Positions 18,229-64,000 of a DNA stretch of 64,000 bases are shown piece after piece; the stretch's first letter is position 1, and every line of letters starts with the position of its first letter. The stretch is from Clostridia bacterium. Its GTDB lineage: Bacteria; Bacillota; Clostridia; Oscillospirales; CAG-272. The notes beneath the pieces were generated by a model that saw nothing but the letters and a program-made list of their open reading frames with translations, searched no databases and was not told the origin of the DNA. Location of the stretch: positions 25,575 through 89,574 of the forward strand of contig JAFVXI010000030.1 in assembly GCA_017501245.1 (NCBI GenBank). Reading direction: 5' to 3'. A program made the translations under genes and the position numbers.

Positions 18229-18345
18229 ACAGCGACAACTGTCGCTGATGATATACACGACTAAGGTCGTGATGATATGCACTCACAAAGTGAGTGATGA
18301 TATACAGCGACGGACGTCGCTGTATATCAGGCTGAAGCGCCTATG
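18229..18345. repeat. Hairpin array A (linker ATGATATA)
   Basis: Successive short hairpins are CAGCGACA/TGTCGCTG, CACGAC/GTCGTG, CACTCAC/GTGAGTG and CAGCGAC/GTCGCTG, with 2-4 nt loops. They are separated by ATGATATA, ATGATATG and ATGATATA. An inverted TATATCA then leads into an AGGC/GCCT hairpin. The stems differ while the linkers are nearly constant. The array begins where the third 125-bp copy breaks off. No gene lies between it and valS. Confidence 0.8.
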
Positions 18346-18439
18346 AGATGCTGCGTGCCTGTCCGCTCGGGATAGCACGCACCCCATACCCCCGTAAGAT
18401 TATTTAATTTGCCGGAAAACGGCGAAAGGATATAGAAAA

Positions 18440-21076
18440 ATGAGAAAAGAACTTGCTAAAAACTACGATCCTAAGGAGTTTGAGGAAAGGGTCTATTCAG
18501 AGTGGTGCGAGAAGAACTATTTCGCTCCCGATCCCGACCCCAAAAAGCCCGCCTTCTCCATCGTTATCCCCCCTCCAAACGTAACCGGTCAGCTTCATAT
18601 GGGTCACGCTCTTGACCAGACCCTCCAGGATATCCTCGTGCGCACCAAGCGTATGCAGGGCTTCTCGACCCTTTGGGTCCCCGGCACCGATCACGCCGGC
18701 ATCGCAACGCAGATCAAGGTTGAGGAAAATCTCCGTGTCAACGAGGGCCTCACCAGATACGACCTCGGCAGAGAGAAGTTCCTTGAGCGTGTCTGGGCAT
18801 GGAAGGAGCAGTACGGCAACCGTATCATCAGCCAGCTCAAGAAGCTCGGCTCCTCCTGCGACTGGTCCCGTGAGCGCTTCACGATGGACGAGGGCTGCTC
18901 GAGAGCCGTCCGCGAGGTGTTCGTAAACCTCTATAACAAGGGCCTCATCTACCGTGGCTACCGTATCATCAACTGGTGCCCCCATTGTCTTACCGCACTT
19001 TCCGACGCCGAGGTCGAGTATAGCGAGCAGGCAGGCTCCTTCTGGCATATCCGCTATCCCGTCGTAGGCTCCGACGAGTACGTGACCATAGCGACCACAA
19101 GACCCGAGACCATGCTCGGAGACACCGCCGTTGCAGTTCATCCCGAGGACGAGAGATACACCCACCTCGTGGGCAAGAAGCTCCTCCTCCCCCTCGTAAA
19201 CAGAGAGATCCCCGTCATCGCCGACGAGTACGTTGAGCGCGATTTCGGAACCGGATGCGTCAAGATCACCCCCGCCCACGACCCCAACGACTTCGAGGTC
19301 GGCGGTCGCCACGATCTCCCCGTCATCAAGGTGATGAACGATGATGCCACCATCAGCGAGGAGTTTGGCGGCAAATATGCGGGCATGGACAGATACGAGG
19401 CACGCCGTGCCATCGTAAAGGATCTCGAGGAGGGCGGCTTCCTCGTCAAGATCGAGCCCTGCTCGCACAACGTCGGCACCTGCTATCGCTGCAAGACCAC
19501 CGTTGAGCCCCTCACCTCCGATCAGTGGTTCGTAAAGATGGCTCCCCTCGCTAAGCCCGCTCTCGAGGCCGTAGTCAGTGGCGACATCAAGTTCGAGCCC
19601 GAAAGGTTCTCTAAGACCTATATTAATTGGATGGAAAACTGCCACGACTGGTGCATCTCCCGTCAGCTCTGGTGGGGCCACAGGATCCCCGCCTTCTATT
19701 GCGAGGAGTGCGGCCATATGGAGGTTTCCAAGACCGACATAACCGAGTGTCCCAAGTGTGGCGGCAAGGTAACGCAGGAGTCCGACGTGCTTGACACCTG
19801 GTTCTCCTCGGCTCTCTGGCCCTTCTCGACGATGGGCTGGCCGGATAAGGATGCTCCCGACCTCGCAAGATATTTCCCAACCGACGTCCTCGTCACGGGC
19901 TATGACATCATCTTCTTCTGGGTTGCGAGAATGATCTTCTCCGCCCTTGAGCACACGGGCAAGAAGCCCTTCAGCACCGTATTCATCCACGGCCTTGTGC
20001 GTGATGCGCAGGGCAGAAAGATGTCCAAGTCGCTCGGCAACGGCATCGACCCCCTCGAGATCATCGACAAGTACGGCGCAGACGCTCTCCGCTTCGCCCT
20101 CGCTACGGGCAACGCACCCGGAAACGATATGCGCTTCTCCGACGAGAAGATCGAGGCGGCGCGAAACTTCGCAAACAAGCTCTGGAACGCATCGAGATTC
20201 GTGCTTATGAACCTCACCGAGCCCGACGAGGAGCTGCTGGAGATGCCCGAGGAGAGCGAGCTTGAGCTTGAGGACAAGTGGATCCTCGAGCGCCTCAACG
20301 GAGTAGTCAAGTCGGTCAGAGCAAACGTAGATAACTACGAGCTTGGTATAGCCCTTGCGGAGATCTATTCCTTCACCTGGGATCAGTTCTGCGACTGGTA
20401 TATCGAGATGGTCAAGGGACGCATCTTCGAGGGCGGCAAGAAGGCTCTTAACGCTAAGCGCATCCTCCTCAAGGTCCTCACTGACATCCTTAAGCTCCTC
20501 CACCCCTATATGCCCTTCATCACCGAGGAGATATATTCCGCAATTCCTCACTCCACCGAGAGCATCATGATCTCTAAGTATCCGGAATTTGACACGGGTA
20601 TGGACTATAAGTGTGAGGAGGCAGACGTAGACAGGATAATCACTGCCATCGTTGCCATCCGTGCGCGCCGTGCGGAGATGAACGTTCCTCCCTCGAAGCG
20701 TGCTAAGCTCTTCGTAGTAACCAAGTATCAGGAGAGCTTCAAGAGCGCAGAGAAGATCCTTATGAAGCTTGCCTCCGCAAGCGAGGTAGAGCTTGTAGAC
20801 GAGTATACCGCTGACGACGCCGTAATGATCGCGACCGATGCGGGCAATATGTATATTCCTCTCGCCGAGGTCATCGACTTCGAGAAGGAGCGCGCAAGAC
20901 TCACCGCCGAGATGAAGAAGAATGAGGGCGAGATCGAGCGCATCGAGAAGAAGCTTTCTAACGAGGGCTTCGTTTCCAAGGCTCCCGCCGCTGTCATCGA
21001 GGGCGAGAGAGCAAAGCTCCGCAAGTATCTCGACACCCGTGAGTCGCTCGCTCAGGCGCTCGCAAAGCTCGGCTGA
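18440..21076 (+). CDS. valS: Valyl-tRNA synthetase
   Basis: ValS charges tRNA-Val and edits misactivated threonine. The 878-residue length is typical. The class I HIGH motif is QLHMGH (residue about 52), the editing domain spans roughly residues 190-350, and KMSKS is near residue 526 ([11 protein letters not shown]). A cysteine cluster ([18 protein letters not shown]) around residue 415-440 resembles the zinc finger of related synthetases. The C-terminal about 65 residues are the charged coiled coil that binds tRNA. AAAGGA lies nine bases before the ATG. Expression should be controlled by the T-box upstream. Confidence 0.98.
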
Positions 21077-21202
21077 TAGCTATATCACCACCCTCAAAGA
21101 CTGATTTATCCCTGTGTATTGACATTAATAGTTGTCAAAAGCCTTCTTGCAAGCGCTAGTCAGGTCGCATTGGATAATATCTCTTTGATCGCAAAATAAC
21201 AT

Positions 21203-21235
21203 AAAAACGGCTCGGAGCAAAAAAGCTCCGAGCCG
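21203..21235 (-). terminator. Intrinsic terminator, minus-strand polarity
   Basis: The arms CGGCTCGGAGC (21208-21218) and GCTCCGAGCCG (21225-21235) enclose an A6 loop. The T-run follows on the minus strand only (AAAAA at 21203-21207 on plus), yet no minus-strand gene ends here. Confidence 0.6.
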
Positions 21236-21275
21236 CATCCACCTCTTTGGGGCATCGCCCCGAGAAAGGGAAAAT

Positions 21276-22178
21276 ATGGAAACAAAGAAAAAGGACGAAA
21301 TAACCGTCATTCATTCGGACAGCTACCCCGACACCGAGGAAAACAGAATAATTCACATCCCCGAGGGCATAGTGGAGATAGCCGAAAACGCCTTCAGAGA
21401 AAACGCAAGCCTTGAGGAGATCTACCTCCCGAGGAGCCTGAGACTCATCTCGGCTTCGGCGTTTGCCGGCTGTGCGAGGCTTCGCCGCGTCGTCTTTTCG
21501 GATGGGCTTCGTGAGATAGGTGACGAGGCGTTTTCCTCCTGCCCGTCCATAACCGGCATATCTCTGCCCGACACGGTCTCGAGGATAGGTGAGGGTGCCT
21601 TTGAGGCATGTGCCTCGCTCACCTCGCTTAAGCTCTCCGAGTCGCTCTATATGGTCGGCTCAAACGCCTTTGCCTTCTGCTTTAACCTCACTCACGTCAC
21701 CGTGCCCGACAGCTGCGTGCTGGTCGAGTTCTCCGCCTTTGCAAATTGCTTCAGCCTTGAGTCTGTCAAGCTCTCTTCAAATATGACGCTTATCGACGAC
21801 TCTACATTTGAAGGCTGCAGATCGCTAAAGGATGTCGATATGCCAACAAAGCTTGTCAAAATCGGGCGTAAAGCCTTTGAGGGCTGCTCCTCTTTAGCCT
21901 CGCTTATTCTCCCCGTTGGAGTAAGGAGCATAGGCTATGACGCCTTCGTCGGCTGCTCCTCTCTTGTGCGCATAGCCCTGCCGAGGGCGCTCTCCGAGCC
22001 GCTTGACCCCGACGTCTTTCGTGGCTGCGAGTCACTCACCGACATCTCCTTCGGCGGCAGTGAGGACGAATGGGCGCACCTTGGCGGCAGCATCGGCGTA
22101 ACGCACGACGATATGACCATACATTACCCGAGGGTAACAGCCCTCGACCTTGATCTTAAAGGAGGCTCACTCTCTTGA
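21276..22178 (+). CDS. Leucine-rich repeat (BspA/LRR_5-type) protein without signal peptide
   Basis: The 300-residue protein is built of about ten 23-residue BspA-type repeats, such as IGEGAFEACASLTSLKLSES and IGRKAFEGCSSLASLILP. These form a solenoid usually found in secreted adhesins of gut and oral anaerobes. Here there is no signal peptide, lipobox or anchor, so it is probably cytoplasmic or exported by another route. AAAGGG precedes the ATG. The stop codon overlaps the TTG start of the next gene, which implies translational coupling to the HAD hydrolase. Function unknown. Confidence 0.85.
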   Translation: METKKKDEITVIHSDSYPDTEENRIIHIPEGIVEIAENAFRENASLEEIYLPRSLRLISASAFAGCARLRRVVFSDGLREIGDEAFSSCPSITGISLPDTVSRIGEGAFEACASLTSLKLSESLYMVGSNAFAFCFNLTHVTVPDSCVLVEFSAFANCFSLESVKLSSNMTLIDDSTFEGCRSLKDVDMPTKLVKIGRKAFEGCSSLASLILPVGVRSIGYDAFVGCSSLVRIALPRALSEPLDPDVFRGCESLTDISFGGSEDEWAHLGGSIGVTHDDMTIHYPRVTALDLDLKGGSLS

Positions 22179-22834
22179 AATACAAGTGTCTTCTCTTAGA
22201 CCATGACGACACCGTCGTCGCAAGCACCGAGGCGATACATTATCCCTCGCTGATAGCCTATTTTGAGGACTATAAGCCGCATTTTTTAGGAAAGTATTCC
22301 TTCGAGGAATTCATCCTCAAAAACTTTGATCCCGGCGTCCTCGAGTTCTTCCACGGAGAGCTTGGGATGAGCGACGAGGAGATGGCTCTTGAGGATAAAT
22401 ATTGGAAGGATTTCGTTGCCACGCGCATACCCACGGCGTACGAAGGAATAGCCGGGATAATCTCCGAGTTCCGCACCCGTGGCGGCATTATCGGCGTCGC
22501 ATCGCATTCCTACGAGGAGTATATAAGGCGAGACTACGAGCATAATTCTCTCCCCCTGCCCGACTGCATCTACGGCTGGGATCTGCCGCGTGAGCATCGC
22601 AAGCCCTCACCTTTCACCGTGCTTGACATCTGCCGCCGCTATTCGATAGAGCCCTCCGAGGTCCTCGTCGTCGACGATCTCAAGCCGGGCTACGACATGG
22701 CGCGTGCCGCAGGAGCGGACTTTGCCGCCGCAGGCTGGGCTTATAACGTGCCCCGCATCGAGGAGTTTATGCGCAAAAACTGCGACTACTACCTCACCTC
22801 CGTCGCCGAGCTTTCCGACCTCCTCTTCGGCTGA
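22175..22834 (+). CDS. HAD-family hydrolase (phosphatase-like)
   Basis: The 219-residue protein has the HAD motifs in order: motif I LLDHDDTVV near residue 8, motif II VASHS near residue 110, the lysine in HRKPSP, and motif IV VVDDLKPGYDMA. It is probably a small-molecule phosphatase of the phosphoglycolate phosphatase/beta-phosphoglucomutase type. The substrate cannot be read from sequence. It starts with TTG, preceded by AAAGGAGG, and overlaps the end of the LRR gene by four bases. A bidirectional terminator follows. Confidence 0.86.
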   Translation: MKYKCLLLDHDDTVVASTEAIHYPSLIAYFEDYKPHFLGKYSFEEFILKNFDPGVLEFFHGELGMSDEEMALEDKYWKDFVATRIPTAYEGIAGIISEFRTRGGIIGVASHSYEEYIRRDYEHNSLPLPDCIYGWDLPREHRKPSPFTVLDICRRYSIEPSEVLVVDDLKPGYDMARAAGADFAAAGWAYNVPRIEEFMRKNCDYYLTSVAELSDLLFG

Positions 22835-22856
22835 TGTTACCGACGTTTTCCACCAA

Positions 22857-22885
22857 AAAAGCCTCATCCGGATAGGGTGAGGCTT
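22857..22885. terminator. Bidirectional intrinsic terminator
   Basis: The arms AAGCCTCATCC and GGGTGAGGCTT (about 22859-22884) have an A-run on one side and a T-run on the other, between the HAD gene and the convergent minus-strand pair. Confidence 0.8.
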
Positions 22886-22899
22886 TTCTGGTTATAAAA

Positions 22900-22970
22900 A
22901 ACTCGTCTGAGTTATGATTTTTCACTACTTATGATTATTCACTACTTATGATCTTGTCTGAGTTGCGATC
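22900..22970. repeat. Short repeat cluster E (linker TTATGAT)
   Basis: ACTC/GAGT (22901-22912) is followed by three TTATGAT units alternating with CACTACT and GTCTGAG segments, ending in TTGCGATC. Only the first unit clearly folds. It resembles the linker-plus-variable-segment arrays elsewhere in the window but is the weakest member. Confidence 0.45.
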
Positions 22971-23621
22971 TCACCCGAAGAAGTAGTCGTATTCGCCGCG
23001 AGCCTCTCTGAGGAGGCGCTGCTCCTCACGCATCATACGCTCGGCGTAGCGCTCGAAGGTAGACGCCGTAAACACCTTGATGCCGTATAATTCGTCACCC
23101 GTGAAGGCGATCTTGATCGAGGTCTTCTCCTCCGTAACGTAGGAGAGCATACCCGGAGCGGGATTTAGTATCAGCGCTCTGACGATATGCTTTTCGCTCT
23201 CACTGTATTCCTCGGGGATAGGGAAGGGCGGTGTGTAAACGACCTTGGCATAGAGGTTTATGCCGGAGGACATAGCAAGTGACGAGCGCCCCATCCCCCT
23301 CACGCCGCGAAGGCCCTTCAGGCGCATATAAATGCAGGAATAGCTCTCGTTTGCAAAGTGGACGCTCTTGGATATGCCGCCGCCCGAATAGAAGCGGATG
23401 AGGTATACCGTGTTCATTATCTCTACTCTTGCGTCAGCCCCCTCACGCACGAGCCACATAGGTCTGTATGGGAAAGAAAGTAAACTAACCTTTGCATTAC
23501 AGCTCTTTTTCAGCCCGAGGAGCTTGAAGATCAGCGCCGTGCGCTTGATAAACCAGGTTAAGAAATTAAAGCCTATCCATACGATTATGACGGTTAAAAT
23601 CAGCTTGATAATATCGTTCAT
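22971..23621 (-). CDS. Unknown protein with one N-terminal membrane segment
   Basis: I do not recognise this 216-residue protein. Residues about 4-24 form a hydrophobic helix (LILTVIIVWIGFNFLTW) followed by basic residues, so the larger C-terminal part should be cytoplasmic. It includes RFYSGGG and a basic C-terminal tail rich in E and R (ERMMREEQRLLREARGEYDY). The ATG at 23621 is chosen because AGGAGGGG lies two bases upstream. An in-frame upstream extension to 23774 overlaps the previous gene and lacks a ribosome site. The start is nine bases from the stop of the membrane protein at 23630-24220, so they form a two-gene operon. Confidence 0.7.
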   Translation of the reverse strand: MNDIIKLILTVIIVWIGFNFLTWFIKRTALIFKLLGLKKSCNAKVSLLSFPYRPMWLVREGADARVEIMNTVYLIRFYSGGGISKSVHFANESYSCIYMRLKGLRGVRGMGRSSLAMSSGINLYAKVVYTPPFPIPEEYSESEKHIVRALILNPAPGMLSYVTEEKTSIKIAFTGDELYGIKVFTASTFERYAERMMREEQRLLREARGEYDYFFG

Positions 23622-23629
23622 AGCCCCTC

Positions 23630-24220
23630 CTAACCGACGTCGCCTGAGATCCAGGCTGCACGCCACGCCGACAGCGTCGAGGGGATGAGAATAAGCCTCG
23701 CCACAACCGAGATCAGCACCGTTATCGCCAAAGCGGGGAAAAGCTCGGCATATCCGTAGAGTGCGCCGCCGCACCAGATGAGGGGAAAGACGGGCGCCAC
23801 GTATTCGTATGGCACGAGATAAGCCACCAAAACCATCACCACGGGTGCAAAAACGGCACTGATAAGATCCGTGATCCAGAACTCCTTGAGATACCAGACT
23901 GTCCTCTCGGGGATCCGGTATAGCCCCTCGGTCAGCCTCGTCAGATATTCAAAGCGCTTGTTGTCAAGTCGCATAGCAAAGACGGTCACGACGAGGGTGA
24001 TGAGCGCAACGGTCACTATCCGCAGCCCCCTCTCCATAGCGAGGTAGGCCTCCGGCTCCGAGATCGGGCTCGGCCTCGTAAAGAGGGCGGGGAAGTTTAA
24101 GACAAGATAGTCGAACACGATTAAGACGAGTGGCTCGGCGATGGGATAGATCGCCGCACCGAAAAGGAAGCATAAAAGCCCGAGCAGGGGCGGCAGAACG
24201 TATTTGTGCAGTATTTTCAT
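23630..24220 (-). CDS. Unknown multi-spanning membrane protein
   Basis: The 196-residue protein has about four hydrophobic segments, at residues about 8-42, 65-85, 115-137 and 150-177. A charged loop between the second and third reads RLDNKRFEYLTRLTEGLYRIPE. No motif identifies a family. GAGGAGGGG precedes the ATG. It is the first gene of an operon with the single-pass protein at 22971-23621, and the two may form a membrane complex, which is inference from gene order only. The stop is TAG. Confidence 0.72.
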   Translation of the reverse strand: MKILHKYVLPPLLGLLCFLFGAAIYPIAEPLVLIVFDYLVLNFPALFTRPSPISEPEAYLAMERGLRIVTVALITLVVTVFAMRLDNKRFEYLTRLTEGLYRIPERTVWYLKEFWITDLISAVFAPVVMVLVAYLVPYEYVAPVFPLIWCGGALYGYAELFPALAITVLISVVARLILIPSTLSAWRAAWISGDVG

Positions 24221-24396
24221 CCTTGTCCCCTCCTCTCAAAAACGGCTCGCCGACAGAGCCTCTACCTTCATTATATTGAAGAATGCCCGTCTTGTCAAGC
24301 CTTGCCGCCCCGATAGCTCCCCCTCTTTATTTACATTTTGGAAATCCCCCGCCCTCCGTTTTATCACGCACGCATAATACTTTTTCTTTTTAAGTA

Positions 24397-24425
24397 TTGA
24401 TTTATTTAGGAAAATATGGTATCAT
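24397..24425 (+). promoter_or_regulatory. Promoter of the kdu genes
   Basis: TTGATT (24397-24402), 17 bp, TATCAT (24420-24425). Transcription would begin around 24432, directly at the sequence AAAAGGGGTGATC that resembles a ribosome binding site. Confidence 0.55.
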
Positions 24426-24437
24426 ACAGGAAAAGGG

Positions 24438-26084: not shown

Positions 26085-26127
26085 TCACAAGAAAAGTAAA
26101 TTTAAGTTAACATAAGGAGAATAAAAA

Positions 26128-26931
26128 ATGGCAAACGAAAAGAACTTTGACCTCACCGGTAAGGTCGCTCTTATAACCGGCGCATCCTACGGCATCGGCT
26201 ATGCTATCGCAAAGGGACTTGCTGCCGCAGGCGCAACCATCGTCTTCAACGATATCAAGGCTGAGTTCGTCGAGCGTGGACTTAAGTCCTACGAGGCAGA
26301 CGGCATCAAGGCTCACGGCTACGTCTGCGACGTCACCGACGAGGATGCTGTAAACGCATTCGTCGCCCAGGTTGAAAAGGAGGTTGGCGTTATCGACATC
26401 CTCGTAAACAACGCAGGTATCATCAAGAGGATCCCCATGATCGAGATGACCGCCGCAGAGTTCAGACAGGTTATCGACGTTGACCTTAACGCTCCCTTCA
26501 TCGTATCTAAGGCTGTTATCCCCTCCATGATCAAGAAGGGCGCAGGCAAGATCATCAACATCTGCTCCATGATGTCCGAGTTCGGCCGTGAGACCGTCTC
26601 TGCTTACGCTTCCGCAAAGGGCGGACTTAAGATGCTCACCAGAAACATCGCTTCCGAGTACGGCCAGTATAACATCCAGTGCAACGGCATCGGTCCCGGC
26701 TATATCGCAACTCCTCAGACTGCTCCCCTTCGTGAGCGTCAGCCCGATGGCTCCAAGCACCCCTTCGACAGCTTCATCACCGACAGCAAAACTCCCGCCG
26801 GTCGCTGGGGCGATCCCTCCGACCTCGCCGGCCCCGCCGTATTCCTCGCCAGCACCGCCTCCGACTTTGTCAACGGTCAGATCCTCTATGTAGATGGAGG
26901 AATTCAGGCATACTTCGGCAAGCAGCCCTAA
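26128..26931 (+). CDS. kduD: 2-deoxy-D-gluconate 3-dehydrogenase / KduD-type SDR oxidoreductase
   Basis: The 267-residue short-chain dehydrogenase has the cofactor motif TGASYGIGYAIA, NNAG, a serine in ICSMMSE and the catalytic YASAKGG. In this position after kduI it should reduce 3-deoxy-2,5-hexodiulosonate to 2-keto-3-deoxygluconate with NAD(P)H. The sequence is also close to gluconate 5-dehydrogenase, so the assignment rests partly on context. AAGGAG lies eight bases before the ATG. It is cotranscribed with kduI. Confidence 0.88.
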   Translation: MANEKNFDLTGKVALITGASYGIGYAIAKGLAAAGATIVFNDIKAEFVERGLKSYEADGIKAHGYVCDVTDEDAVNAFVAQVEKEVGVIDILVNNAGIIKRIPMIEMTAAEFRQVIDVDLNAPFIVSKAVIPSMIKKGAGKIINICSMMSEFGRETVSAYASAKGGLKMLTRNIASEYGQYNIQCNGIGPGYIATPQTAPLRERQPDGSKHPFDSFITDSKTPAGRWGDPSDLAGPAVFLASTASDFVNGQILYVDGGIQAYFGKQP

Positions 26932-27153: not shown

Positions 27154-27337
27154 TGCCCGATAAAGGCTTTTTTACGAATAATCTTACTATTATCTCTTGT
27201 GGCTTATGCCTTTGCTTTCAGCATGTGGCGTGCATATGATATATTGCCAAGAGATATATCCGCCTTCGGTCACTGCGAAGGCTCCTGCGGCTATGTCGCA
27301 AACTATCGACGTTTTAGAAAAAAGAAAGGCTTCAATA

Positions 27338-28706: not shown

Positions 28707-30362
<1,656 letters not shown>

Positions 30363-30800: not shown

Positions 30801-31051
30801 CGCCCCGAAGGGGCATATCGCTTGTCTGGGGCAAATATCGCATTTTGGACGTGAGTGGCCAAAATATATCGCAGATCACCCTATGTGATCTATATCGCTG
30901 CGCACCTGCGCACAGATACTCTTTGTCTGTTAAACGCCCCGAAGGGGCATATCGCTTGCCCACAGGGCAAATATCGCATTTTGGACGTGAGCGATCAAAA
31001 TATATCGCAGATCATCCTATGTGATCTATATCGCTGCGCACCTGCGCACAT
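30801..31051. repeat. Hairpin array B, duplicated (linker ATATCGC)
   Basis: Two copies of a five-hairpin array start at 30801 and 30935 (period 134 bp). Stems in order are GCCCC/GGGGC, TTGCCC/GGGCAA, ATTTTG/CAAAAT, AGATCA/TGATCT and TGCGCA/TGCGCA, each separated by ATATCGC. Differences between copies mostly keep pairing, using G-U pairs in hairpins 2, 3 and 4. The array fills the gap between the sigF 3' end and the groES promoter. It contains no gene. Confidence 0.85.
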
Positions 31052-52619: not shown

Positions 52620-52694
52620 AGGAAGTTGCGCTCGAAGGAGCGATCAACGCAGCTAAAACCGTCTTTTAAAACTATAATGATCCTCTTTTCATAC

Positions 52695-52840
52695 TGCTCC
52701 CATTAGGCGGATGAGATCCACCATAGGCGGATGAGATCGCTATTGCGATGATATCCTGCTTCGCAGGGTTATAGTTAGGTGGGGAGGATAAAAGCTATGA
52801 GATGCGCACATCGTTATGATCGCGCTGCGCCCAAGCTATA
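52695..52840. repeat. Hairpin array C (linker ATGAGATC / ATGATAT)
   Basis: AGGCGGATGAGATC occurs twice (ATGAGATC at 52711-52718 and 52731-52738). A GC/GC mini-hairpin, GATGATAT (52747-52754) and the hairpin CCTGC-TTC-GCAGG (52755-52767) follow, then further ATGAGATG and TTATGATCGC units with GCGC-rich stems. The 332-nt gap between the DUF362 gene and uxuA holds no gene. Confidence 0.68.
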
Positions 52841-52857: not shown

Positions 52858-52898
52858 AAACCCGAGGCTCGGCAAAAAGCTGCCAAGCCTCGGTTTTT
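52858..52898. terminator. Bidirectional terminator
   Basis: AAACCCGAGGCT and AGCCTCGGTTTT enclose a second inner GGCA/TGCC stem, between the DUF362 gene and convergent uxuA. Confidence 0.88.
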
Positions 52899-54687: not shown

Positions 54688-54751
54688 CAATAAAACCTCG
54701 TGAGGTCGGACGCAGATATTTATCATAAGCTGAAAACGCCGACCACGAAAT

Positions 54752-54961: not shown

Positions 54962-54981
54962 TTATCAACGGGGGGACGACT

Positions 54982-56349: not shown

Positions 56350-56429
56350 CCCACACGGGTTGAAAAAACAGTCATCGTCGGTATATCTACCTGATGAAAA
56401 GCATCGTCGGTATAGCGCACAAAATAAAT

Positions 56430-56490
56430 GGCATCGGCAATAGAACGGTACTCATAGCGAGCGTCGCCCTATCTGCCGATGCCTTTTTTT
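56430..56490 (+). terminator. Terminator after the flavodoxin-like gene
   Basis: GGCATCGGCA (56430-56439) and TGCCGATGCC (56474-56483) pair across a 34-nt loop, followed by T7. Confidence 0.8.
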
Positions 56491-56571
56491 CATTTTTTAA
56501 TTAACGGTTAAGGCGTTCTTAACTCCGATAATCTTCCGCCAGAGGGAAGGCTTACAGCTCGCCCCCAGAGC

Positions 56572-59256
56572 TCACGCCTCGAGAATATAAGAGGGCCTCA
56601 GAACCGCAAAATCCCTGCCGTAGTAGAGCAGCCTTTCGGCTAGCTGTCCGAAGTCGGCAACCTCCGAGATGCCCGAGGTGAGGTTATACAGCACGCCGTC
56701 GCCTCCCCATACGTAGACGTACTCGCTCGAGCTCGTTCTCGCAAGCAGGACGTCGCCCGCAACGAGATTATGCTCCCGTAAAAGCCTCGTTCTGTCGTGG
56801 AGCTTATCCGAGGAGTCAAAGCGCATGCCGCCGTAGAGATGGTCGACGAGCATCGAGGAGTAGTAGCTCTCGTCATATCTTAGCTTTGAGAGGCTTTTCT
56901 TGTTGTTCACCTTCTCCGATTCCGCAAAGACGCTCTCCTCACCATCACGCAAGACCGAGCTGACGGTGCCGTCACGGAAGATGTCGGCGACACCGAGAGC
57001 TCTTTTATATATCTCGTTTATAAGCTCAAGCCCCGTAAGCTCGGTGCCTTCATTCCTTAGCTGGGCGAGCGCACGAAGAATGGCGTCGCCCTCGCTCTTA
57101 TCAAGCGTTTTTTTAACACGGGTCGCCGCCGTGCGGTGTAAAACGCCCTCGACACGTCCGTCAACACCATCAATGAGCATACCGTCCTTGGCGTCCTCGT
57201 CTACCCTCACGGTATATGACACCGAGCCGACCTCGCCGCCATTAAGTGTAAGCTTGAAGTATAGAACACCGTCGCATACCTCGTCAGCGCCTGCGATGTA
57301 GCTCGTTCCAAGGGGCGCCCTGTCGGAAACGGTGATGGTTCTCGGCTCGTCACCGAGATTAGTTATAACGTACGTGTAGGTTATCTCGCCACCGGGCGAA
57401 ACGCTCACGGAGGAGGGATGGCTCGATAGCTTCTCCGCCTTTATGCCCTTCATGCCCTCCATGCGGTTTCTTGAGTTTTCGGGTATCTCACCCGAGAAGC
57501 CATTAAGAGGTCTGACAATGGTAATAACGTTATCCTCGTCGTTAAACATCGAGGTCTTGCCCGAGAAGAGGTAGTCGTGTACTCTGTGACCCCTGATCGT
57601 CGCCTCGTAGACCTCCTTGCCCACTCCGCCGGGAGCCGTGTAGCTTGCGCCGCTCGAATGGATGAATTTGCCGTTTCCTACGTAGAGCATAGCGTGGCCG
57701 GTCGTCTTGCCGGTGGTGGCGTTCTTGTGCCTCCTCACCATAATGTCGCCGACCTCGAGCGTCTCCATAAACTGCCTTTCGACCTCGAGCTGCTCCTCCG
57801 GGGAATAGACCTCCGAGCGTGAGCGCTCAAGGCTGAAAACGCGCATCCCATAGATGGCGGAGTTCTCGGTCAGCCTCTCGGTCGTATACATATTGCCGGG
57901 CAGGCGGAAGCCAAGTGCGGCAAGATAAACGTCGTAGGTAAAGACGGCACAGTTAACGTAGCCCCATTCGTCGCTCGTATATTCCTCGGGCAGCTTCTCT
58001 CCGTATGCCCAGCGATATTCTCCCGACGTGGACGAGAGGCCGAAATGCACGTCCTCGTATTGTAGAGCCTCGCCTCGGTAGAGGTAGCTCTCCGCCGCCG
58101 CTATTATCGCCCTTTGAGCGTCGCTTAGCTCCGGGGCCTCCTCATCGGGGTCGGAGGGGGTAAAGGCCGTCATATTAAGCGACGGGCGCACAGTGATAAA
58201 TGCATCCGAGGTGCCAAGTGACGCTAACACTCTTTCGGTGTCAACCTCCGCCGCCCTGTCCGTGATATCGGTCAAAATGCCGTTATTTGCTATGTAAAGT
58301 TTACATTCCTCGCTCGATTTCACTATCAGAAGGTCGCCTGAGATAAGGTCTCCTATGCCGATATCATCTCGGGCAGAGCCGCATAGATACGCCTTGCCGC
58401 CGCCAAGCAGCCTGCCTCCCCATAGCCCGGGCGCAACCGAGGAAAAGAGCCTCTCGTAGCCTCCGTAGCCATAGATCACCGCGTCGATAGCGTCGAGGGG
58501 ATCTCCCGGTATCAGCTCGCTCACCGCACCGCCCTGCGTAAAGGCGTGGGTATAAATTCTCGCAGCCAGGTCAATGCCGCCGAAGGATGACGGGGCAAGA
58601 ACTCTTACCGCAAGGTCGACGTATTTTCTGTCTATCTCGTTGAGCGTGCTGCCGATATAGAGGTCGCAAGAGGAGATCTCACAGCCGTTTACCGTCGTTC
58701 CTCCGCCCGAGATCACCTCGCCCGAGGCCTCTCGGCCTGCCGTCAGCTCAAGGGTGTATTCCACGGATTTTTCCTCGCCTGCCCCAAGAGCCAGCGTCCA
58801 GAGGAGCCTGTCGCCGTCGGTGCGTTCCGCCCCCGATAAATATTTCGTATACCGAGGCAGGGTCGTCTGTATCTCTGCCGTAGTGGCGCTCTCGCCCTCG
58901 TTTTTAACCGTGATGCGATAGCTGATGCGGCTTCCTCGGTAGGTCTCGCCCGACCAGCCAATCCCGTGCGTAGGGTAGAGCGTAACACCCTCGCTGACCG
59001 AGGCGCTCTTCTTCGCGCTTATCTCTCCCGTCATCATATCTCCTCCGCATCTGTCGCATTTTTTATCGCCGTCCGAATCCTCGTGCCGGATCTCTGTCTT
59101 ACCGCCGCACAGCTCGCATTCGCCGTCGCAGTTCATATCCGTATGACGGCATTCACTATCGCTCCCCGTATCACCGCAGGAGCATAAAAGCAAGCAGCCC
59201 ACCAGCACCAGTGTGAGAAACAGCGCTGCAGAGCGCATCACCCGTTTATTTTTCAT
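56572..59256 (-). CDS. NlpC/P60-type lipoprotein with DUF11-like domains
   Basis: The 894-residue protein has a signal peptide ending in the lipobox LCSC. A short cysteine/acidic segment follows (CDGECELCGG, DSDGDKKCDRCGGD) resembling the CxxC repeats of the two giant lipoproteins and calcium-binding loops. A DUF11-like domain lies at about 95-190 (SYRITVKNEGES). The NlpC/P60-like domain at about 440-560 has the cysteine in VNCAVFTYDVYLAALG and the histidine in GHAMLYVGNGKFIHSSG, which would cut peptidoglycan stem peptides. A second DUF11-like segment (YTYVITNLGDEPRTITVSD) and a related, probably inactive copy follow. It starts at 59256 with GGAGG five bases upstream. A wall-remodelling role is probable. 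Confidence 0.85.
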   Translation of the reverse strand: MKNKRVMRSAALFLTLVLVGCLLLCSCGDTGSDSECRHTDMNCDGECELCGGKTEIRHEDSDGDKKCDRCGGDMMTGEISAKKSASVSEGVTLYPTHGIGWSGETYRGSRISYRITVKNEGESATTAEIQTTLPRYTKYLSGAERTDGDRLLWTLALGAGEEKSVEYTLELTAGREASGEVISGGGTTVNGCEISSCDLYIGSTLNEIDRKYVDLAVRVLAPSSFGGIDLAARIYTHAFTQGGAVSELIPGDPLDAIDAVIYGYGGYERLFSSVAPGLWGGRLLGGGKAYLCGSARDDIGIGDLISGDLLIVKSSEECKLYIANNGILTDITDRAAEVDTERVLASLGTSDAFITVRPSLNMTAFTPSDPDEEAPELSDAQRAIIAAAESYLYRGEALQYEDVHFGLSSTSGEYRWAYGEKLPEEYTSDEWGYVNCAVFTYDVYLAALGFRLPGNMYTTERLTENSAIYGMRVFSLERSRSEVYSPEEQLEVERQFMETLEVGDIMVRRHKNATTGKTTGHAMLYVGNGKFIHSSGASYTAPGGVGKEVYEATIRGHRVHDYLFSGKTSMFNDEDNVITIVRPLNGFSGEIPENSRNRMEGMKGIKAEKLSSHPSSVSVSPGGEITYTYVITNLGDEPRTITVSDRAPLGTSYIAGADEVCDGVLYFKLTLNGGEVGSVSYTVRVDEDAKDGMLIDGVDGRVEGVLHRTAATRVKKTLDKSEGDAILRALAQLRNEGTELTGLELINEIYKRALGVADIFRDGTVSSVLRDGEESVFAESEKVNNKKSLSKLRYDESYYSSMLVDHLYGGMRFDSSDKLHDRTRLLREHNLVAGDVLLARTSSSEYVYVWGGDGVLYNLTSGISEVADFGQLAERLLYYGRDFAVLRPSYILEA

Positions 59257-59305
59257 AACAGCCTCCACCCGGGGCAAACATCGCCGCCGAACAATGTGCA
59301 ATATA

Positions 59306-59334
59306 TTGACATAATTAATGCCCTTTGCTATAAT
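59306..59334 (+). promoter_or_regulatory. Consensus promoter of the AraC gene
   Basis: TTGACA (59306-59311), 17 bp, TATAAT (59329-59334): perfect hexamers and spacing. Confidence 0.88.
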
Positions 59335-59410
59335 TATAGCATCAACTCAGGGCACAATCCTGCCGTTTGCGCTTTTTTATGTGCCATTTTTTGACCGGAG
59401 GGAATAATAT

Positions 59411-60202
59411 ATGCAGCATGCGAGATTTAATGCGGAAAGAGAGCGGGCGGCCAAGATATTCTGCAAAAGCTATAAAAACGACCGATGTATCTTTCAGTTT
59501 CATTCGCAGATAGAGATATATTTCATAAACGAGGGCGAGATGGAGATGCGTGTGGACGGCCGCACCGAGCTGCTTCGTGCGCCTGCCGTTTCGGTCGCGC
59601 TCAGCTATTCGACCCACGCATACAGGACGCCGACGTCCTCCGCATCATCGGTTTTGCTCATACCTCCCCACGTCTGCGAGGAGTTCATCGAGGCGGTAAA
59701 GGGAAAGAGCCTCGCCTCCCCCTTTATCACCGACCCCGAGGTCTGTGCCGAGCTTCGCTCCTGCTATGAGAGGATCGTCGCCGCAGAGGATAAGCCTATT
59801 CTACGCCTAGGCTATATCTACACCGCCCTCGGCATACTTCTCGATGCCCTGGCTCTCGTCGATAAGGGCGGAGACGCCGACAGCGACCTCACCTCACGCA
59901 TCCTCCTCTATATTGACGAGAACTATAAAAACGGCATCACCCCGAAGGACGTCTCTCGTCATTTCGGTTATAGCAACAGCTACGTCTCTCGCTATTTCTC
60001 CTCCGCCCTCGGGACGACGCTCTCGAAGTATATAACCTCCGTAAAGCTCCGAAGCGCAGTAATGCTTATGCGTGAGGGCAGGCACGACGTCACCTATTGC
60101 GCCTTCGAATCCGGCTTCTCCTCAATGCGCACCTTCTACCGTGCCTTCAGGGAGGAATTCGGCTCCTCGCCAAAGGACTTCATCAAAGCACAAAAGGAGT
60201 AA
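59411..60202 (+). CDS. AraC-family transcriptional regulator with cupin-like sensor domain
   Basis: The 263-residue protein has an N-terminal cupin-like ligand domain (FHSQIEIYFINEGEMEMRVDG) and the C-terminal double helix-turn-helix of AraC proteins (TPKDVSRHFGYSNSYVSRYF, then VTYCAFESGFSSMRTFYRAF and GSSPKDFI). Such regulators usually control carbohydrate use. CGGAGGG lies eight bases before the ATG. Its neighbours are the divergent NlpC lipoprotein and a downstream MATE transporter with its own promoter, so the target is unclear. Confidence 0.93.
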   Translation: MQHARFNAERERAAKIFCKSYKNDRCIFQFHSQIEIYFINEGEMEMRVDGRTELLRAPAVSVALSYSTHAYRTPTSSASSVLLIPPHVCEEFIEAVKGKSLASPFITDPEVCAELRSCYERIVAAEDKPILRLGYIYTALGILLDALALVDKGGDADSDLTSRILLYIDENYKNGITPKDVSRHFGYSNSYVSRYFSSALGTTLSKYITSVKLRSAVMLMREGRHDVTYCAFESGFSSMRTFYRAFREEFGSSPKDFIKAQKE

Positions 60203-60213
60203 CGCCTCCCCCA

Positions 60214-60330
60214 CCACTTTTGCCCTCGGGCAAAAGCTTCACTTCGTCCCCGTCGAAACTTCACTTGCCCAAAGCGGCAGACTTCACTTTGCCCTCAGCA
60301 AAAACTGCACTGCGGCAGAATGCCGCTCAA
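60214..60330. repeat. Hairpin array F (linker ACTTCACTT)
   Basis: Hairpins TTTTGCCC/GGGCAAAA (60218-60235), TTCG/CGAA, TGCC/GGCA, TTTGC/GCAAA and GCGGCA/TGCCGC are separated by CTTCACTTC, ACTTCACTT, ACTTCACTT and AACTGCACT. More hairpins with other linkers continue to about 60480 (GCAG/CTGC, CTACGAT/ATCGTAG), plus two copies of GCCAAGCTTTGC. The 363-nt gap holds no gene. Confidence 0.75.
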
Positions 60331-60506
60331 ACGCCCCAAGGCAATTCATAGCGTCAGCCAATCCATGACACCCCGTGTTGGTTCATGCAGCTCCGCTGCC
60401 ATTTCTCGTATCCGACCCCGCCAAGCTTTGCATCCACGCTACGATTTATCGTAGCCTACCCTGCCAAGCTTTGCCTCCTCGCCGCCATTCATCGGCTCCC
60501 TCCTCC

Positions 60507-60535
60507 TTGACATTTCTATACGCATATGATAGAAT
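60507..60535 (+). promoter_or_regulatory. Promoter of the MATE gene
   Basis: TTGACA (60507-60512), 17 bp, TAGAAT (60530-60535). Confidence 0.75.
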
Positions 60536-60565
60536 ATCCAAGGAAAAAACAAGTAAGGAATAATA

Positions 60566-61948
60566 ATGCAGATCCAGCTTTCAGACCATTTCGATTATAA
60601 GCGCATCCTGCGCTTTACTCTGCCGAGCGTGCTGATGCTCGTTTTCACGTCCATATACGGCGTTGTTGACGGCTTCTTCGTGTCTAACTTCGCAGACAAA
60701 ACGGCGTTTACCGCCATTAACTTCATATATCCGTATATCATGATCCTCGGCGCCCCGGGCTTTATGCTCGGCACAGGCGGCTCGGCTCTCATCTCTAAGA
60801 TCCTCGGCGAGGATGCGGGAAAGAGCTTCGACGGCCCCACAAGAGCAGACAAGACCTTCTCGATGCTGGTCTACACGTCGGTCGCTATCGGCGCCCTTCT
60901 CGCTATCCTCGGCGTCACCACGGTCGGCCCCGTTGCCGCCCTGCTCGGTGCTGAGGGCGATATGCTCGAGGATTGCATTCTCTACGGCAGGGTGCTGTCG
61001 ATCTCGATACCCGCCTTCATCCTCCAGAACCTCTTTCAGTCGCTCTGCGTAACGGCGGAAAAGCCGAAGCTCGGCCTCTATTTCACGGTGATGGCAGGCG
61101 TGACGAATATGGTTCTCGATGCGCTTTTAGTTGCTGTAATACCCCTCGGCCTCCTTGGTGCCGCCCTTGCTACGGCGCTCAGCCAGCTTATCGGCGGTGT
61201 CGTTCCCCTCTTCTTCTTCGGAAGGAGGGCAACGGGCCTTCTTCATCTCGTCCCCGCAAGGCCGAACTTCGGCAGCTTAGGCAGAATATGCTTTAACGGC
61301 TCCTCCGAGCTGCTCTCAAACATCTCGATGTCCGTCGTCGGCATGCTCTACAACGCACAGCTTATGTCCATAGCGGGAGAGGACGGTATAGCCGCCTACG
61401 GCGTGCTTATGTACGTCAACTTTATATTCATCTCCGCCTTCATCGGCTATGCGGTCGGCATAGCGCCGGTCATAGGCTTCCACTACGGAGCGGGCAACTC
61501 TGACGAGCTTAAGAGCTTAAGGAAGAAAAGCTCGGTAATTATACTCTTATCCTCTCTCATTATGTTCGCATCCTCCGAGCTTCTCGCCTATCCCCTGTCA
61601 TATATGTTCGTGGGCTACGACGAGGCGCTCCTCGCTATGACCCTCAGGGGCTTCCGCCTCTATTCCTTCTGCTTCCTCTTTGCAGGATTGTCCATCTTCA
61701 TCTCCTCCTTCTTCACTGCGCTGAACGATGGTCTCATCTCCGCCGTCCAGTCCTTTGCGAGGACGATCGTGTTCCAGGTCGGAGGCGTCCTGCTGCTGCC
61801 TATGCTCTTTGGCATCGAGGGCGGGCTTTTCTCCGGGCTCCTCACTGCGCTTGACGGCGTCTGGCTCTCGGTCGTGTTCTCGGATCTGTTCTCGCTTATC
61901 TTAGGACTGTGCCTGCTCGCCGCATTTAAGAAGAAGTATAAGTATTAA
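60566..61948 (+). CDS. MATE-family efflux transporter
   Basis: The 460-residue protein has about twelve hydrophobic segments in two homologous halves. It begins with the MATE pattern (LRFTLPSVLMLVFTSIYGVV, DGFFVSNF) and has GTGGSALISKILGE and YGAGNSDEL in the corresponding loops. It should export organic cations or drugs by sodium or proton antiport. The substrate is unknown. AAGGAAT lies upstream of the ATG. Confidence 0.92.
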   Translation: MQIQLSDHFDYKRILRFTLPSVLMLVFTSIYGVVDGFFVSNFADKTAFTAINFIYPYIMILGAPGFMLGTGGSALISKILGEDAGKSFDGPTRADKTFSMLVYTSVAIGALLAILGVTTVGPVAALLGAEGDMLEDCILYGRVLSISIPAFILQNLFQSLCVTAEKPKLGLYFTVMAGVTNMVLDALLVAVIPLGLLGAALATALSQLIGGVVPLFFFGRRATGLLHLVPARPNFGSLGRICFNGSSELLSNISMSVVGMLYNAQLMSIAGEDGIAAYGVLMYVNFIFISAFIGYAVGIAPVIGFHYGAGNSDELKSLRKKSSVIILLSSLIMFASSELLAYPLSYMFVGYDEALLAMTLRGFRLYSFCFLFAGLSIFISSFFTALNDGLISAVQSFARTIVFQVGGVLLLPMLFGIEGGLFSGLLTALDGVWLSVVFSDLFSLILGLCLLAAFKKKYKY

Positions 61949-62072
61949 GGATGGTGCGACGCTCGGATGCGATAAAAGAGCCGATAGTGGATCATGGCTT
62001 GATTTTTTATGATAGCCGCACCCCGTGTCAAGTTATCCGCTTTATCCTTTCATAACCCACTTGGCAACGCAA

Positions 62073-62114
62073 AAAAGCGCCTCCCATCGGCATTATAGCT
62101 GAGGAGGCGCTTAT
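62073..62114. terminator. Bidirectional terminator
   Basis: AAGCGCCTCC and GGAGGCGCTT (about 62075-62112) with an A6 run before, between the convergent MATE and MFS genes. Confidence 0.85.
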
Positions 62115-62141
62115 ATTATATCTTTCAGTCCCCAAATGGGG

Positions 62142-63395
62142 TTATTTGTCAAGTCTTATTTGCATATTTTGTCTGTATCTGCGATAGATAACGGCGTAAA
62201 CGCATGCGGCGAGTATAGGCAGCACACTGACCGCCAGCATTCCGACCCTCATGCCGACAGCCTCGGCAGAGCCCGTGAGGATGTCGCCGAGCCAGCCCGA
62301 AGCCGATGCGATATCAGCGACGGCACCGACCAGCTGAGGCCCGACTGACGCACCGAGATCACCTCCCGCCGCCATCATAGCGTAGACGAGAACTCCGCCC
62401 GAGGGGATCCTGTCAGCCGCATAGATGAGCGTTCCCGGCCAGAGCATAGATGCGCATAGACCGGTCATAGCGCAGGCTATAAGCGATATTATCGGTGAGG
62501 GCGAGAGCGCCGCAACGAGATAGCAGACCACCGAGCCGAGAGAGCCGAAGAAGAGGATGGGCTCGGGGCTCTTGCCGTATTTAGAGTAGAGCGTCCTGCC
62601 TATGCCGAGCATCACCGCAAAGAGCGTAACTCCGAAGATGTCGCCCCATATCTTGTCTATTCCGAGCGCCGCCTCTATGTATCCCGACGCCCACTGTGAC
62701 ATCGTGCATTCGGTCGCACCGCCGAGAAAGATCGCCAGAACGGAGAACCAAAGAGCAGGATTTTTAAACTGCTTTATAGCTCCTCCGATGCGCTCGGGTG
62801 TCTTAAGCTCGGGTAGCTCGGTTCCTAAGTAGAGTATAGCGCCGGTTATCGGGATGAGAGCGCAGATTAGAGTGAGTATCTGCCACGCCTCGCCGCCAAA
62901 GCCGAGGATAAATAAGGAGAGCAGGGGCAGTGAGGCAACGCAGCCCCACGCATAGCTCGAATGCAGCTTCGACACCTCTCTGTCGGGGTCGTCAGAGGGA
63001 ATAGCGGCAATAACCGGGCTTATCAGCACCTCAACGAGGCCGCCCGACGCCGCATAGATCACCGTTCCGATCACAAGACCTATAAAGGGCGAGGCGGGGA
63101 AGAGCAGCGGCGCCGCCGCAAACACGAGAAGCCCCACAGCCGTTATGACCGGCGTCAGCTTGACCGTCAGGCTCATATTCAGCTTGTGTGAGAAGAGCGA
63201 CAGAAGCAGGTCTACGATCAGCTGCGTCGTAAAGTTTATTGCCACGAGCAGCCCCAGCATCGCAAAGGAGATGCCGTAAAGCTCCTTAAAGCTGAGGAAG
63301 AGTATCGGCGCCAGGTTCGTCACCGCCGACATCGCTATATTGCTCGTGTAGCACGCCGCCTTTAAGCGACCGTATGATTTCGTTTTACTTTCCAT
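62142..63395 (-). CDS. Major facilitator superfamily transporter
   Basis: The 417-residue protein has about twelve membrane segments and resembles MFS sugar permeases of the fucose-permease type (YTSNIAMSAVTNLAPILFLS, IGTVIYAASGGLVEVLISP, LIYAADRIPSGG). A conserved charged loop (SDDPDREVSKLHSSYAWG) lies in the middle of the first half. The substrate cannot be told. The ribosome site is weak (AAAG). The leader from the promoter at 63649 is about 220 nt and contains repeats. Confidence 0.88.
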   Translation of the reverse strand: MESKTKSYGRLKAACYTSNIAMSAVTNLAPILFLSFKELYGISFAMLGLLVAINFTTQLIVDLLLSLFSHKLNMSLTVKLTPVITAVGLLVFAAAPLLFPASPFIGLVIGTVIYAASGGLVEVLISPVIAAIPSDDPDREVSKLHSSYAWGCVASLPLLSLFILGFGGEAWQILTLICALIPITGAILYLGTELPELKTPERIGGAIKQFKNPALWFSVLAIFLGGATECTMSQWASGYIEAALGIDKIWGDIFGVTLFAVMLGIGRTLYSKYGKSPEPILFFGSLGSVVCYLVAALSPSPIISLIACAMTGLCASMLWPGTLIYAADRIPSGGVLVYAMMAAGGDLGASVGPQLVGAVADIASASGWLGDILTGSAEAVGMRVGMLAVSVLPILAACVYAVIYRRYRQNMQIRLDK

Positions 63396-63455
63396 AATTT
63401 CTTTGTCCGTCCGTCTGTGTCTTGTCCTTATTTGCTGTGGCTTACTTTAGCTCTG

Positions 63456-63578
63456 CCAAAGAGATTCAGGATCTCTGTCGGAATAGGATTTGAAAAGCTC
63501 CGCTCCTGCCGACAGATGCCACCGCAGGCAACCGTGCTTCACTCCTCCCGCCAAAGGCGTTCAGGATCTCTGTCGACC
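63456..63578. repeat. Direct repeat TTCAGGATCTCTGTCG in the MFS leader
   Basis: The 16-mer occurs at about 63465-63480 and again at about 63560-63575. The first copy lies in a perfect hairpin (AGAGAT-TCAGG-ATCTCT). Confidence 0.6.
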
Positions 63579-63620
63579 AATCGGCGGCACATATGAGCCA
63601 TAAAGCTTTACGCCTTGACT

Positions 63621-63649
63621 ATTCTATCACACCTCGCCAAGGCTTTCAA
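63621..63649 (-). promoter_or_regulatory. Promoter reading toward the MFS gene
   Basis: On the minus strand TTGAAA (63649-63644), 17 bp, TAGAAT (63626-63621). Confidence 0.6.
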
Positions 63650-63707
63650 TACCGCAGCATTCTTTTATTTTAAAAAAGTTAATAAAAATGGGCTAAGCCC
63701 AAACCCA

Positions 63708-63795
63708 TATACGCGAACCCCCAAAGCTCATACTTCGCTTCGGGGAACCCCTATACGTGAACCCCCAAAGCTCATACTTCGCTTCGGGGAACCCC
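63708..63795. repeat. Two 44-bp tandem direct repeats
   Basis: Copies start at 63708 and 63752 (TATACGCG / TATACGTG, then AACCCCCAAAGCTCATACTT and CGCTTCGGGGAACCCC). They differ at one or two positions. A 207-nt plus-strand frame across them has no ribosome site and is not counted as a gene. Confidence 0.85.
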
Positions 63796-63804
63796 TACTC
63801 AAGC

Positions 63805-63854
63805 AGAAAGAGCAAGAGTAAAAGGATAAACTTCCTTCTATTCTTGCTCTTTCT
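63805..63854. terminator. Long stem-loop, possible terminator
   Basis: AGAAAGAGCAAGA (63805-63817) pairs perfectly with TCTTGCTCTTTCT (63842-63854) around a 24-nt loop. There is only a short T-run after it, so the terminator role is uncertain. Confidence 0.45.
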
Positions 63855-63863
63855 GTTTACTTA

Positions 63864-64000
63864 ATGAAATCGTGGTTACACCACGATGAAATCTTCGCTT
63901 TGCTCAGATGAAATCCAAGGTCGAGCCTTGGATGAAATCAAATCCGTCTTACAAAGCCCTGCGAAGCAGGATTTCATCGCGAAAGCGATTTCATCCACCG
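63864..64000. repeat. Hairpin array D (linker ATGAAATC), runs off window
   Basis: ATGAAAT occurs at 63864, 63886, 63908 and 63932, and inverted ATTTCATC at 63971 and 63988. Between them lie CGTGG/CCACG, a weak unit, CCAAGG/CCTTGG, CCTGC-GAA-GCAGG and CGC-GAAA-GCG. The linker turns to the opposite orientation around the CCTGC hairpin. The array may continue beyond the edge. Confidence 0.8.

Follow-up and report, generated by a model that had tools for sequence, protein, structure and literature searches.

The stretch of DNA analysed here, 64,000 nucleotides from a Clostridia bacterium (hereafter the window), corresponds to C24:25575-89574, where window and contig end together, and belongs to a metagenome-assembled genome (MAG) of 1.94 Mb in 37 contigs that is 73% complete. 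In gaps between its genes lie five main arrays of short hairpins, in which a nearly constant linker alternates with variable stems. Four of them are relatives of Gut-1 (RF01706), a candidate RNA, and Gut-1 is here one half of a dispersed, inverted-symmetric element. We consider it rather probable that the arrays form the interior of small mobile elements, most of them non-autonomous, which derive from integrative and mobilizable elements (IMEs) and insert in terminator apices. In what follows, G, C and L numbers denote genomes, contigs and loci, T1 and T2 are two types of element with different ends, and R1 is a covariance model that we built from 32 RF01706 matches of the genus (two of them just below the gathering cut-off of 50 bits) and ran, accepting E values of up to 1, on the window and 400 kb of contig C4. 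The features of the window are the following.

18229..18330, + strand: array in the valS leader, linker ATGATAT[AG], found by the hairpin scan; it lies 3' of a T-box terminator and three ~125-bp repeats.
30801..31051, - strand: two near-identical tandem array copies, linker GCGATAT (ATATCGC on the + strand); R1 match at 30810-30900, E 4e-5.
52669..52840, + strand: decayed array, linkers ATGAGATC and ATGATATC; weak R1 match at 52669-52759, E 0.0035.
60212..60330, - strand: array, linker AAGTGAAGT (on the Gut-1 strand); R1 match at 60231-60312, E 5.3e-5.
63690..63856, + strand: left module of a T2-type element, with GGGCTAAGCCCAAACCCATATA, two nested 44-bp palindromic repeats and a bidirectional terminator-like hairpin AGAAAGAGCAAGA..TCTTGCTCTTTCTG.
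63862..63943, + strand: forward array half, linker ATGAAATC; R1 match of 25.5 bits, E 1.5e-5.
63966..64000, - strand: inverted half of the same array (GATTTCAT), its 5' side cut by the contig end; R1 match of 20.3 bits, E 0.001.

Hairpins between identical 7-mers numbered 11 in the window, whereas 10 dinucleotide-shuffled versions of it had 0-4 apiece; nine lie in the arrays at 18229, 30801 and 63864 and none in those at 52695 or 60214. The five main arrays that a preliminary description had reported from this stretch are present, three of them above the shuffles, but its additional weak array at 22900-22970 is not one: R1 has no match there, and the units of the 17-bp direct repeat that occupies the gap (TTATGATTWTTCACTAC) do not pair (by eye). 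Nor are the arrays five independent families, as it had presented them. R1 gave 16 matches, 11 in C4 (arrays already seen by the scan) and five in the window. The latter fall in four of the main arrays, one of which is matched in its inverted half as well, so that these four match relatives of a single Rfam family. No window array reaches the RF01706 gathering cut-off, and the window arrays are relatives through R1, not members.

According to its 2010 description (PMC2864571), Gut-1 is a candidate RNA from human gut samples only, ranked among the motifs most likely to be expressed as non-coding RNAs; searches of the literature by its name or accession found only this original description. The three-hairpin unit with linkers is the same in Rfam and here, and the Rfam consensus itself has a near-constant GUGAAAU with variable stems; copies at gathering occur in the genus, in the window's own genome and in the order. 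The Rfam model, however, is that of a 77-nt small RNA gene, whereas here it covers one of the two halves of an element that is inverted-symmetric and has ends; the elements also use GTGAAGT, GTGATGT, GTGATAT and GCGATAT linkers. RF01706 matched in 65 of the 69 genus genomes and passed the cut-off in 54, a single genome having as many as 48 matches; in a sample of the order it matched in 126 of 295 genomes and 69 of 148 genera, 103 genomes being over the cut-off. These are lower bounds, with at most 57 candidates scored per genome in the genus and 15 in the order. Among 14 control genomes the sole match, in E. coli, was under the cut-off. In the window's own genome, ACTTCACTT-N7-25-ACTTCACTT occurs 24 times and ATGATATA-N7-25-ATGATATA nine times, against none for either reversed pattern, and the ACTTCACTT pair is found in 26 of the 69 genus genomes, the control pattern in none. 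Scanning the window and 400 kb of C4 revealed more arrays, with linkers forward in one half and inverted in the other. The preliminary description had overlooked this: complete elements repeat the linker inverted in their second half, as 63966-64000 shows.

The best-resolved type of element, T1, measures ~322 bp and is seen in relatives. It consists of a terminal repeat, its own terminator-like hairpin, a pMV158-like origin of transfer (oriT), three to four linker-separated hairpins, a mirror set of these and a terminal repeat. Its ends, GGGYACCTACCGTAAAGCAG and GGCGACCTGCGATAAAGCAG, are inverted repeats, and many pairs of them lie ~305-345 bp apart in the relatives searched. Aligning 20 copies from 10 genomes together with L122 from an eleventh showed shared ends and, among the matches listed, unrelated flanks; the left end is missing or diverged in copies L253, L254 and L261. 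R1 matches all 21 T1 copies supplied, in both orientations in each, its training set having included L122 and the place of L262. At gathering, RF01706 itself falls within T1 copies L122 (52.7 bits) and L262 (53.7 bits) and within T2 copies L022, from the window's own genome (54.6 bits), and L198 (68.3 bits), while T1 copies L243 and L258 fall short of it.

The flanks of T1 copies are complementary to each other. With a score of +1 per match and -2 per mismatch and a threshold of at least 9, the threshold was reached by 15 of the 26 own pairs but by only 36 of the 650 mismatched ones (p 1e-5; 26 of 38 named loci were used, 11 having no usable pair and one a duplicate flank). A second set comprised 30 of 63 loci (excluded were edge cases, duplicates, and elements with an end missing or running beyond their locus), 11 of which were already in the first set as judged by their flanks; in the remaining 19 new copies the threshold was reached by 13, against 16 of 342 mismatched pairs (p 2e-5). 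The top scores, 18-24, combine A-tracts in one flank with T-tracts in the opposite one, like a bidirectional intrinsic terminator. A 3-bp direct repeat, at a position picked by eye on the same data as tested, is exact in 12 of 30 T1 copies against 5.5% expected, and in six of the 19 new copies against 5.3% expected. At the start of T1, its own hairpin stands between A and T tracts (a loose pattern, which does not require pairing, fits 29 of 30), and this hairpin may restore the termination that insertion breaks. In T2, which has other ends, flank complementarity was found in five of five copies against 3 of 20 (p 0.008), own-genome L022 scoring 17. T1 thus shows the features of a miniature inverted-repeat transposable element (MITE) or transposon, with shared ends at unrelated loci, inverted repeats and direct repeats, and T2 shows ends and flanks in five copies. 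We regard the mobility of T1 and its insertion in terminator apices as well supported; the same is seen in the five T2 copies, one of them in the window's own genome.

A comparison of loci points the same way. G041 has a T1 element 3' of valS, and the array is missing in the 20 other genomes examined there (G037 was covered over 145 bases only, and G003 has two linker-like words). A strict terminator scan found an uninterrupted terminator in five of these 21 regions and none in G041, and the terminator of G046 has a matching AAAGCGG..CCGCTTT stem, so that the T1 of G041 appears to have split a terminator. On the 5' side of valS, leaders were readable in eight relatives out of 11 loci, and none of the eight has an array at the position of 18229. 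The preliminary description had counted absence of arrays from homologous loci, and their collapse into copies of one known mobile element, against its proposal. What was found falls on the mobile-element side of both: arrays are missing at homologous loci and those of relatives resolve into mobile-element copies, although no published description of this kind of element was found in the literature on tandem-hairpin or variable-stem repeats, Gut-1, or serine recombinases at terminators; the linker words likewise led to no paper.

The window itself ends in such an element. Copies elsewhere in its genome and in the genus (L019, L022, L087, L116 and L198) have modules related to 63690..63856 ahead of their arrays, and 63690-64000 is a truncated T2-type element whose outer T2 end is absent. 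The conserved module at the start of the 63864 array and its truncation at the contig end had been overlooked, as had the tandem near-copies at 30801-31051. The 44-bp palindromic repeat (GAACCCCCAAAGCTCATACTTCGCTTCGGGGAACCCC) has its two copies nested in the T2 module at 63715-63800, and relatives of it interrupt a hairpin in G011 and arrays in the window's own genome. The arrays at 30801, 52695 and 60214 belong to the family but have no ends that could be recognised. Elsewhere, at L183, L194, L202, L205 and L212, Gut-1 arrays start right behind a T-tract terminator that is intact, and several of these arrays follow tRNA-like genes (by eye); arrays in this position perhaps represent a third insertion mode.

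The five main linkers, ATGATAT, GCGATAT, ATGAGAT, GTGAAGT and ATGAAAT, are variants of one word, RYGANRT, which the preliminary description had missed; GTTATGA (C4:313397-313447) and GTGATGA (L144) lie outside it. Among clusters of RYGA[ATG]RT words with two or more copies in each orientation, 89 of 119 distinct elements have the same linker variant in both halves, whereas permutation gave 30 on average and 48 at most; since copies are related, the 89 cases are not independent of one another. Of the 30 T1 elements, 29 contain two or more RYGA[ATG]RT words in each orientation, which in the 1.7-kb L381 may be chance. We surveyed stem pairing in 286 of 320 distinct segments, using only linkers of the form RYGA[ATG]RT, so that the survey cannot prove that every linker fits this form. 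The combination of constant linker and variable stem that had been reported was borne out, with 218 of the 286 distinct hairpins perfectly paired and many stem sequences. On the strand opposite Gut-1, 114 loops are triloops (C-G closure in 108, a purine first in 99, A last in 96) and 65 are tetraloops, 32 of them GNNA. HEARO/IscB, in view of the HEARO target word, was considered as the source of the RTGA word and rejected, an Rfam scan of 14 loci (E up to 1) having given no HEARO match. A CRISPR array was likewise rejected, the constant part being 7-9 nt long and the variable part palindromic; cas genes were not searched.

After its own hairpin, T1 carries the sequence GCACACGACCTTGCCTGCAAGGTATAGTGTGTTATACC. 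The published oriT of pMV158 is GCACACACTTTATGAATATAAAGTATAGTGTG/TTATACTTTAC (PMC5863519), and the nick is given as TAGTGTG/TTA (PMC5090054). Common to the two are the first six bases, GCACAC, and GTATAGTGTGTTATAC, which contains the nick. The first inverted repeat (IR1) differs from pMV158 in sequence; of 50 distinct modules, 35 have an IR1 stem of at least 5. The arms on either side of the nick (IR2) are paired in 39 of 52, allowing a G-T or A-T outer pair. By this likeness the T1 module is a candidate MOBV-type oriT. Scanning for exact matches to part of the module gave 63 stretches in named genomes, mostly MAGs of ruminant-gut Clostridia and Oscillospiraceae, the carriers including Angelakisella massiliensis, Candidatus Fournierella merdavium and Faecalibacterium sp. 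UBA1360; in these three a large serine recombinase gene lies near the module, and the T1 left end was not recognised. A possible parent of T1 lies on contig C49 of G041, which carries an oriT of the same type, Mob_Pre (the MOBV relaxase, E 2.1e-48), a large serine recombinase, and then a T1 end and half a terminator. Relaxase and integrase genes are absent from the 322-bp T1 forms. Longer T1 forms hold cargo, which in L313 and L314 is a helix-turn-helix regulator (L381 is alike by eye) and in L315 a protein without Pfam match; a further cargo form, L316, holds an array by R1.

Gut-1 could instead be a functional non-coding RNA, a transcribed array that perhaps binds protein through its linkers, with the mobile context incidental or the RNA encoded by the element. 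Of the three readings that the preliminary description had offered, namely structured RNAs, protein-binding arrays and products of a palindrome-adding mechanism, the first is the published view, and the 2010 classification as a likely expressed RNA is joined by strong covariation (in the 32-sequence alignment both partners have changed in 12 of 18 pairs), by two elements that fold far below their shuffles (z -4.7 to -7.7) and by a promoter-like T1 module upstream of the array (by eye). The chemistry of the stems speaks against a requirement for RNA of one strand, G-T and A-C being about equal: stem letters in the 286 hairpins comprise 1535 Watson-Crick pairs, 13 G-T, 21 A-C and 72 other mismatches, whereas 31 distinct tRNAs from the fetched loci have 46 G-T among 651 pairs, about nine times the G-T odds of the arrays; tRNA A-C is 0 by construction, because the tRNA brackets mark standard pairs only. 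This lack of a G-U preference favours palindromes maintained at the DNA level without proving them. Terminator-like hairpins of the own genome, with 6 G-T and 6 A-C isolated mismatches, are equal in the two as well, so that the test is not decisive. Further, the array faces both ways in one element, which leaves no privileged strand; up to 48 matches per genome were counted, several at contig ends; and the linker varies between elements and tends to agree within one. We therefore hold an RNA gene to be unlikely, and of the structured-RNA proposal there stands a possible transcript, with stem chemistry and mobile context favouring structure at the DNA level. The pairing of the stems would be accounted for by folding of single-stranded DNA (ssDNA) during transfer, by a cruciform, by a transcript, or by palindrome correction through template switching.

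Mobility of another kind would result if a DDE transposase that prefers hairpin loops moved a MITE-like element in which the oriT-like module is a passenger. Terminal inverted repeats, 3-bp direct repeats and insertion at a palindrome apex all suit such an enzyme, and IS1397 inserts in loops of E. coli palindromic units while group IIC introns insert beside terminators. Both use DNA hairpins as insertion targets as T1 and T2 do, but they employ other enzymes, and group IIC introns go beside the terminator where T1 and T2 go inside it. The only longer element found with a T1 end and mobility genes has a serine recombinase adjoining that end, the cargo of L313 and L314 (and, by eye, L381) consists of helix-turn-helix regulators, and no transposase lies between T1 ends in the elements read, DDE families not having been searched genome-wide; a DDE transposase seems to us quite unlikely. 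Spread by a REP-associated tyrosine transposase (RAYT, Y1), as of repetitive extragenic palindromes (REPs) and bacterial interspersed mosaic elements (BIMEs), is very improbable. RAYT-like genes do occur in some relatives, one of them near a ATGATATA array (L144), but Y1_Tnp is present in only 18 of the 69 genomes (15 over the cut-off) and was not found in the array-bearing window genome, G055, G019, G011 or G042, the last four being 95-98% complete; and the main linkers are RYGANRT, not a GTAG/CGTC tag, with a palindrome that varies and a tag constant on both sides. Local growth of arrays in place, by slippage and template switching at palindromes and without mobility, would explain the tandem near-copies at 30801-31051 and the repeated units in L206, yet one and the same ordered set of different hairpins, with its ends shared, turns up again at unrelated loci and across genomes, and we give this explanation hardly any credence. 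The RAYT-like Y1 genes at L144, L145 and L146, moreover, lie beside ordinary GTAG-type REPs or are interrupted by them (by eye), a further point against a RAYT as the source of the arrays.

Mobile elements derived from IMEs, the explanation we prefer, must also be set against a number of results, beginning with the two limits on the G-T comparison. The window's genome has just one site like a T1 end, single and with a mismatch; element ends were recognised at none of 18229, 30801, 52695 and 60214; and no T1 or T2 ends were recognised in the short G037 copies, the G055 copies, or L183, L194 and L212, which follow intact terminators. In the first flank test 11 of 26 T1 copies scored below 9, and the exact empty site was not found among the 21 valS 3' regions. 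No oriT was recognised in T2. MOBV relaxase is present in just three of 69 genus genomes, and in the window's genome, a MAG 73% complete, Mob_Pre, large serine recombinase and Y1 transposase were all not found. The left end of the C49 element lies beyond the contig, R1 has no match, that is no array, in the 6 kb read there, and by R1 the cargo forms L313, L314 and L315 are without an array as well. All of this weighs against our reading and, with the only relaxase-bearing parent lacking an array, we assign a role of the hairpins in transfer a low probability.

The explanation we prefer would work as follows. The large serine recombinase of a related IME would excise and integrate the elements in trans, or did so in the past, with the terminator apex serving as attB. 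The terminal repeats would be the att arms, the 3-bp repeat would form the crossover core, and the element's own terminator would take over from the one it splits. When an element is mobilised, the strand that has been nicked at oriT would pass into the recipient with the array leading, its hairpins folded as ssDNA. Stems may stay paired through selection on the ssDNA fold or through palindrome-correcting template switching, and linkers may be retained as a recognition or pairing sequence. Tentatively, and with considerable doubt, we go further: Gut-1 may be no RNA gene but the ssDNA folding array of ~0.3-kb mobilizable elements that integrate at terminator apices genome-wide, which, as the first part to enter the recipient, may start second-strand synthesis or early expression there, with linkers as a possible binding site and stems kept paired at the DNA level. 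Gut-1 has been a candidate RNA of unknown function since 2010, and a place in oriT-bearing elements with a structural target makes its role testable. Strong covariation within a repeat, we caution, need not imply RNA, and terminator apices as a genome-wide target would explain how the elements can be both numerous and harmless.

Several known systems share part of this organisation. IMEs with a MOBV relaxase (IMESag-rpsI, PMC5090054) or a large serine recombinase resemble T1 in the MOBV-type oriT and in the G041 contig that joins relaxase, recombinase and T1 end, but most T1 copies are ~322 bp long, gene-free, many per genome and placed in terminator apices. MITEs, and the REPINs and BIMEs, are likewise short, non-autonomous, dispersed and rich in palindromes; unlike them, the elements here have an oriT, are built of inverted halves and combine variable stems with a constant linker. 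The single-strand origins (sso) of rolling-circle plasmids and ICEBs1 (PMC4595007) are multi-hairpin ssDNA structures near mobilisation genes, a structural analogy and not a sequence similarity, by which the array might act as an sso-type origin. The double-hairpin elements of fungal mitochondria are mobile hairpins with compensatory stems, but they are not bacterial and have no constant linker array.

As to the remaining arrays of the window, RF01706 matches 60212-60289 with 18.9 bits (E 0.2, under gathering), and the 60212..60330 region has eight more matches in the own genome. The array at 30801..31051 sits between a sigma-70-family gene and a Cpn60 gene, and that at 52669..52840 between the DUF362 and uxuA genes, where it adjoins an intact terminator-like hairpin at 52862-52893; its first two stems (from 52695) are poor by eye. 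The 18229 array is the least certain family member in the window, with no R1 match in the search of the window and 400 kb of C4. Its last hairpin ends with the inverted linker (TATATCA), its linker is found in other own-genome arrays, and an own-genome array beside a copy of that linker (L033) matches R1 (19.2 bits, E 0.0014). Upstream of it lies the valS T-box leader (17647-17868; RF00230, 80.9 bits, under the gathering cut-off of 93), and between the T-box terminator and the array are three ~125-bp direct repeats (17924-18230, by eye), parts of which recur in many genus genomes as another dispersed repeat family. At 9424-9640 the window also contains tandem repeats with a period of ~32 bp.

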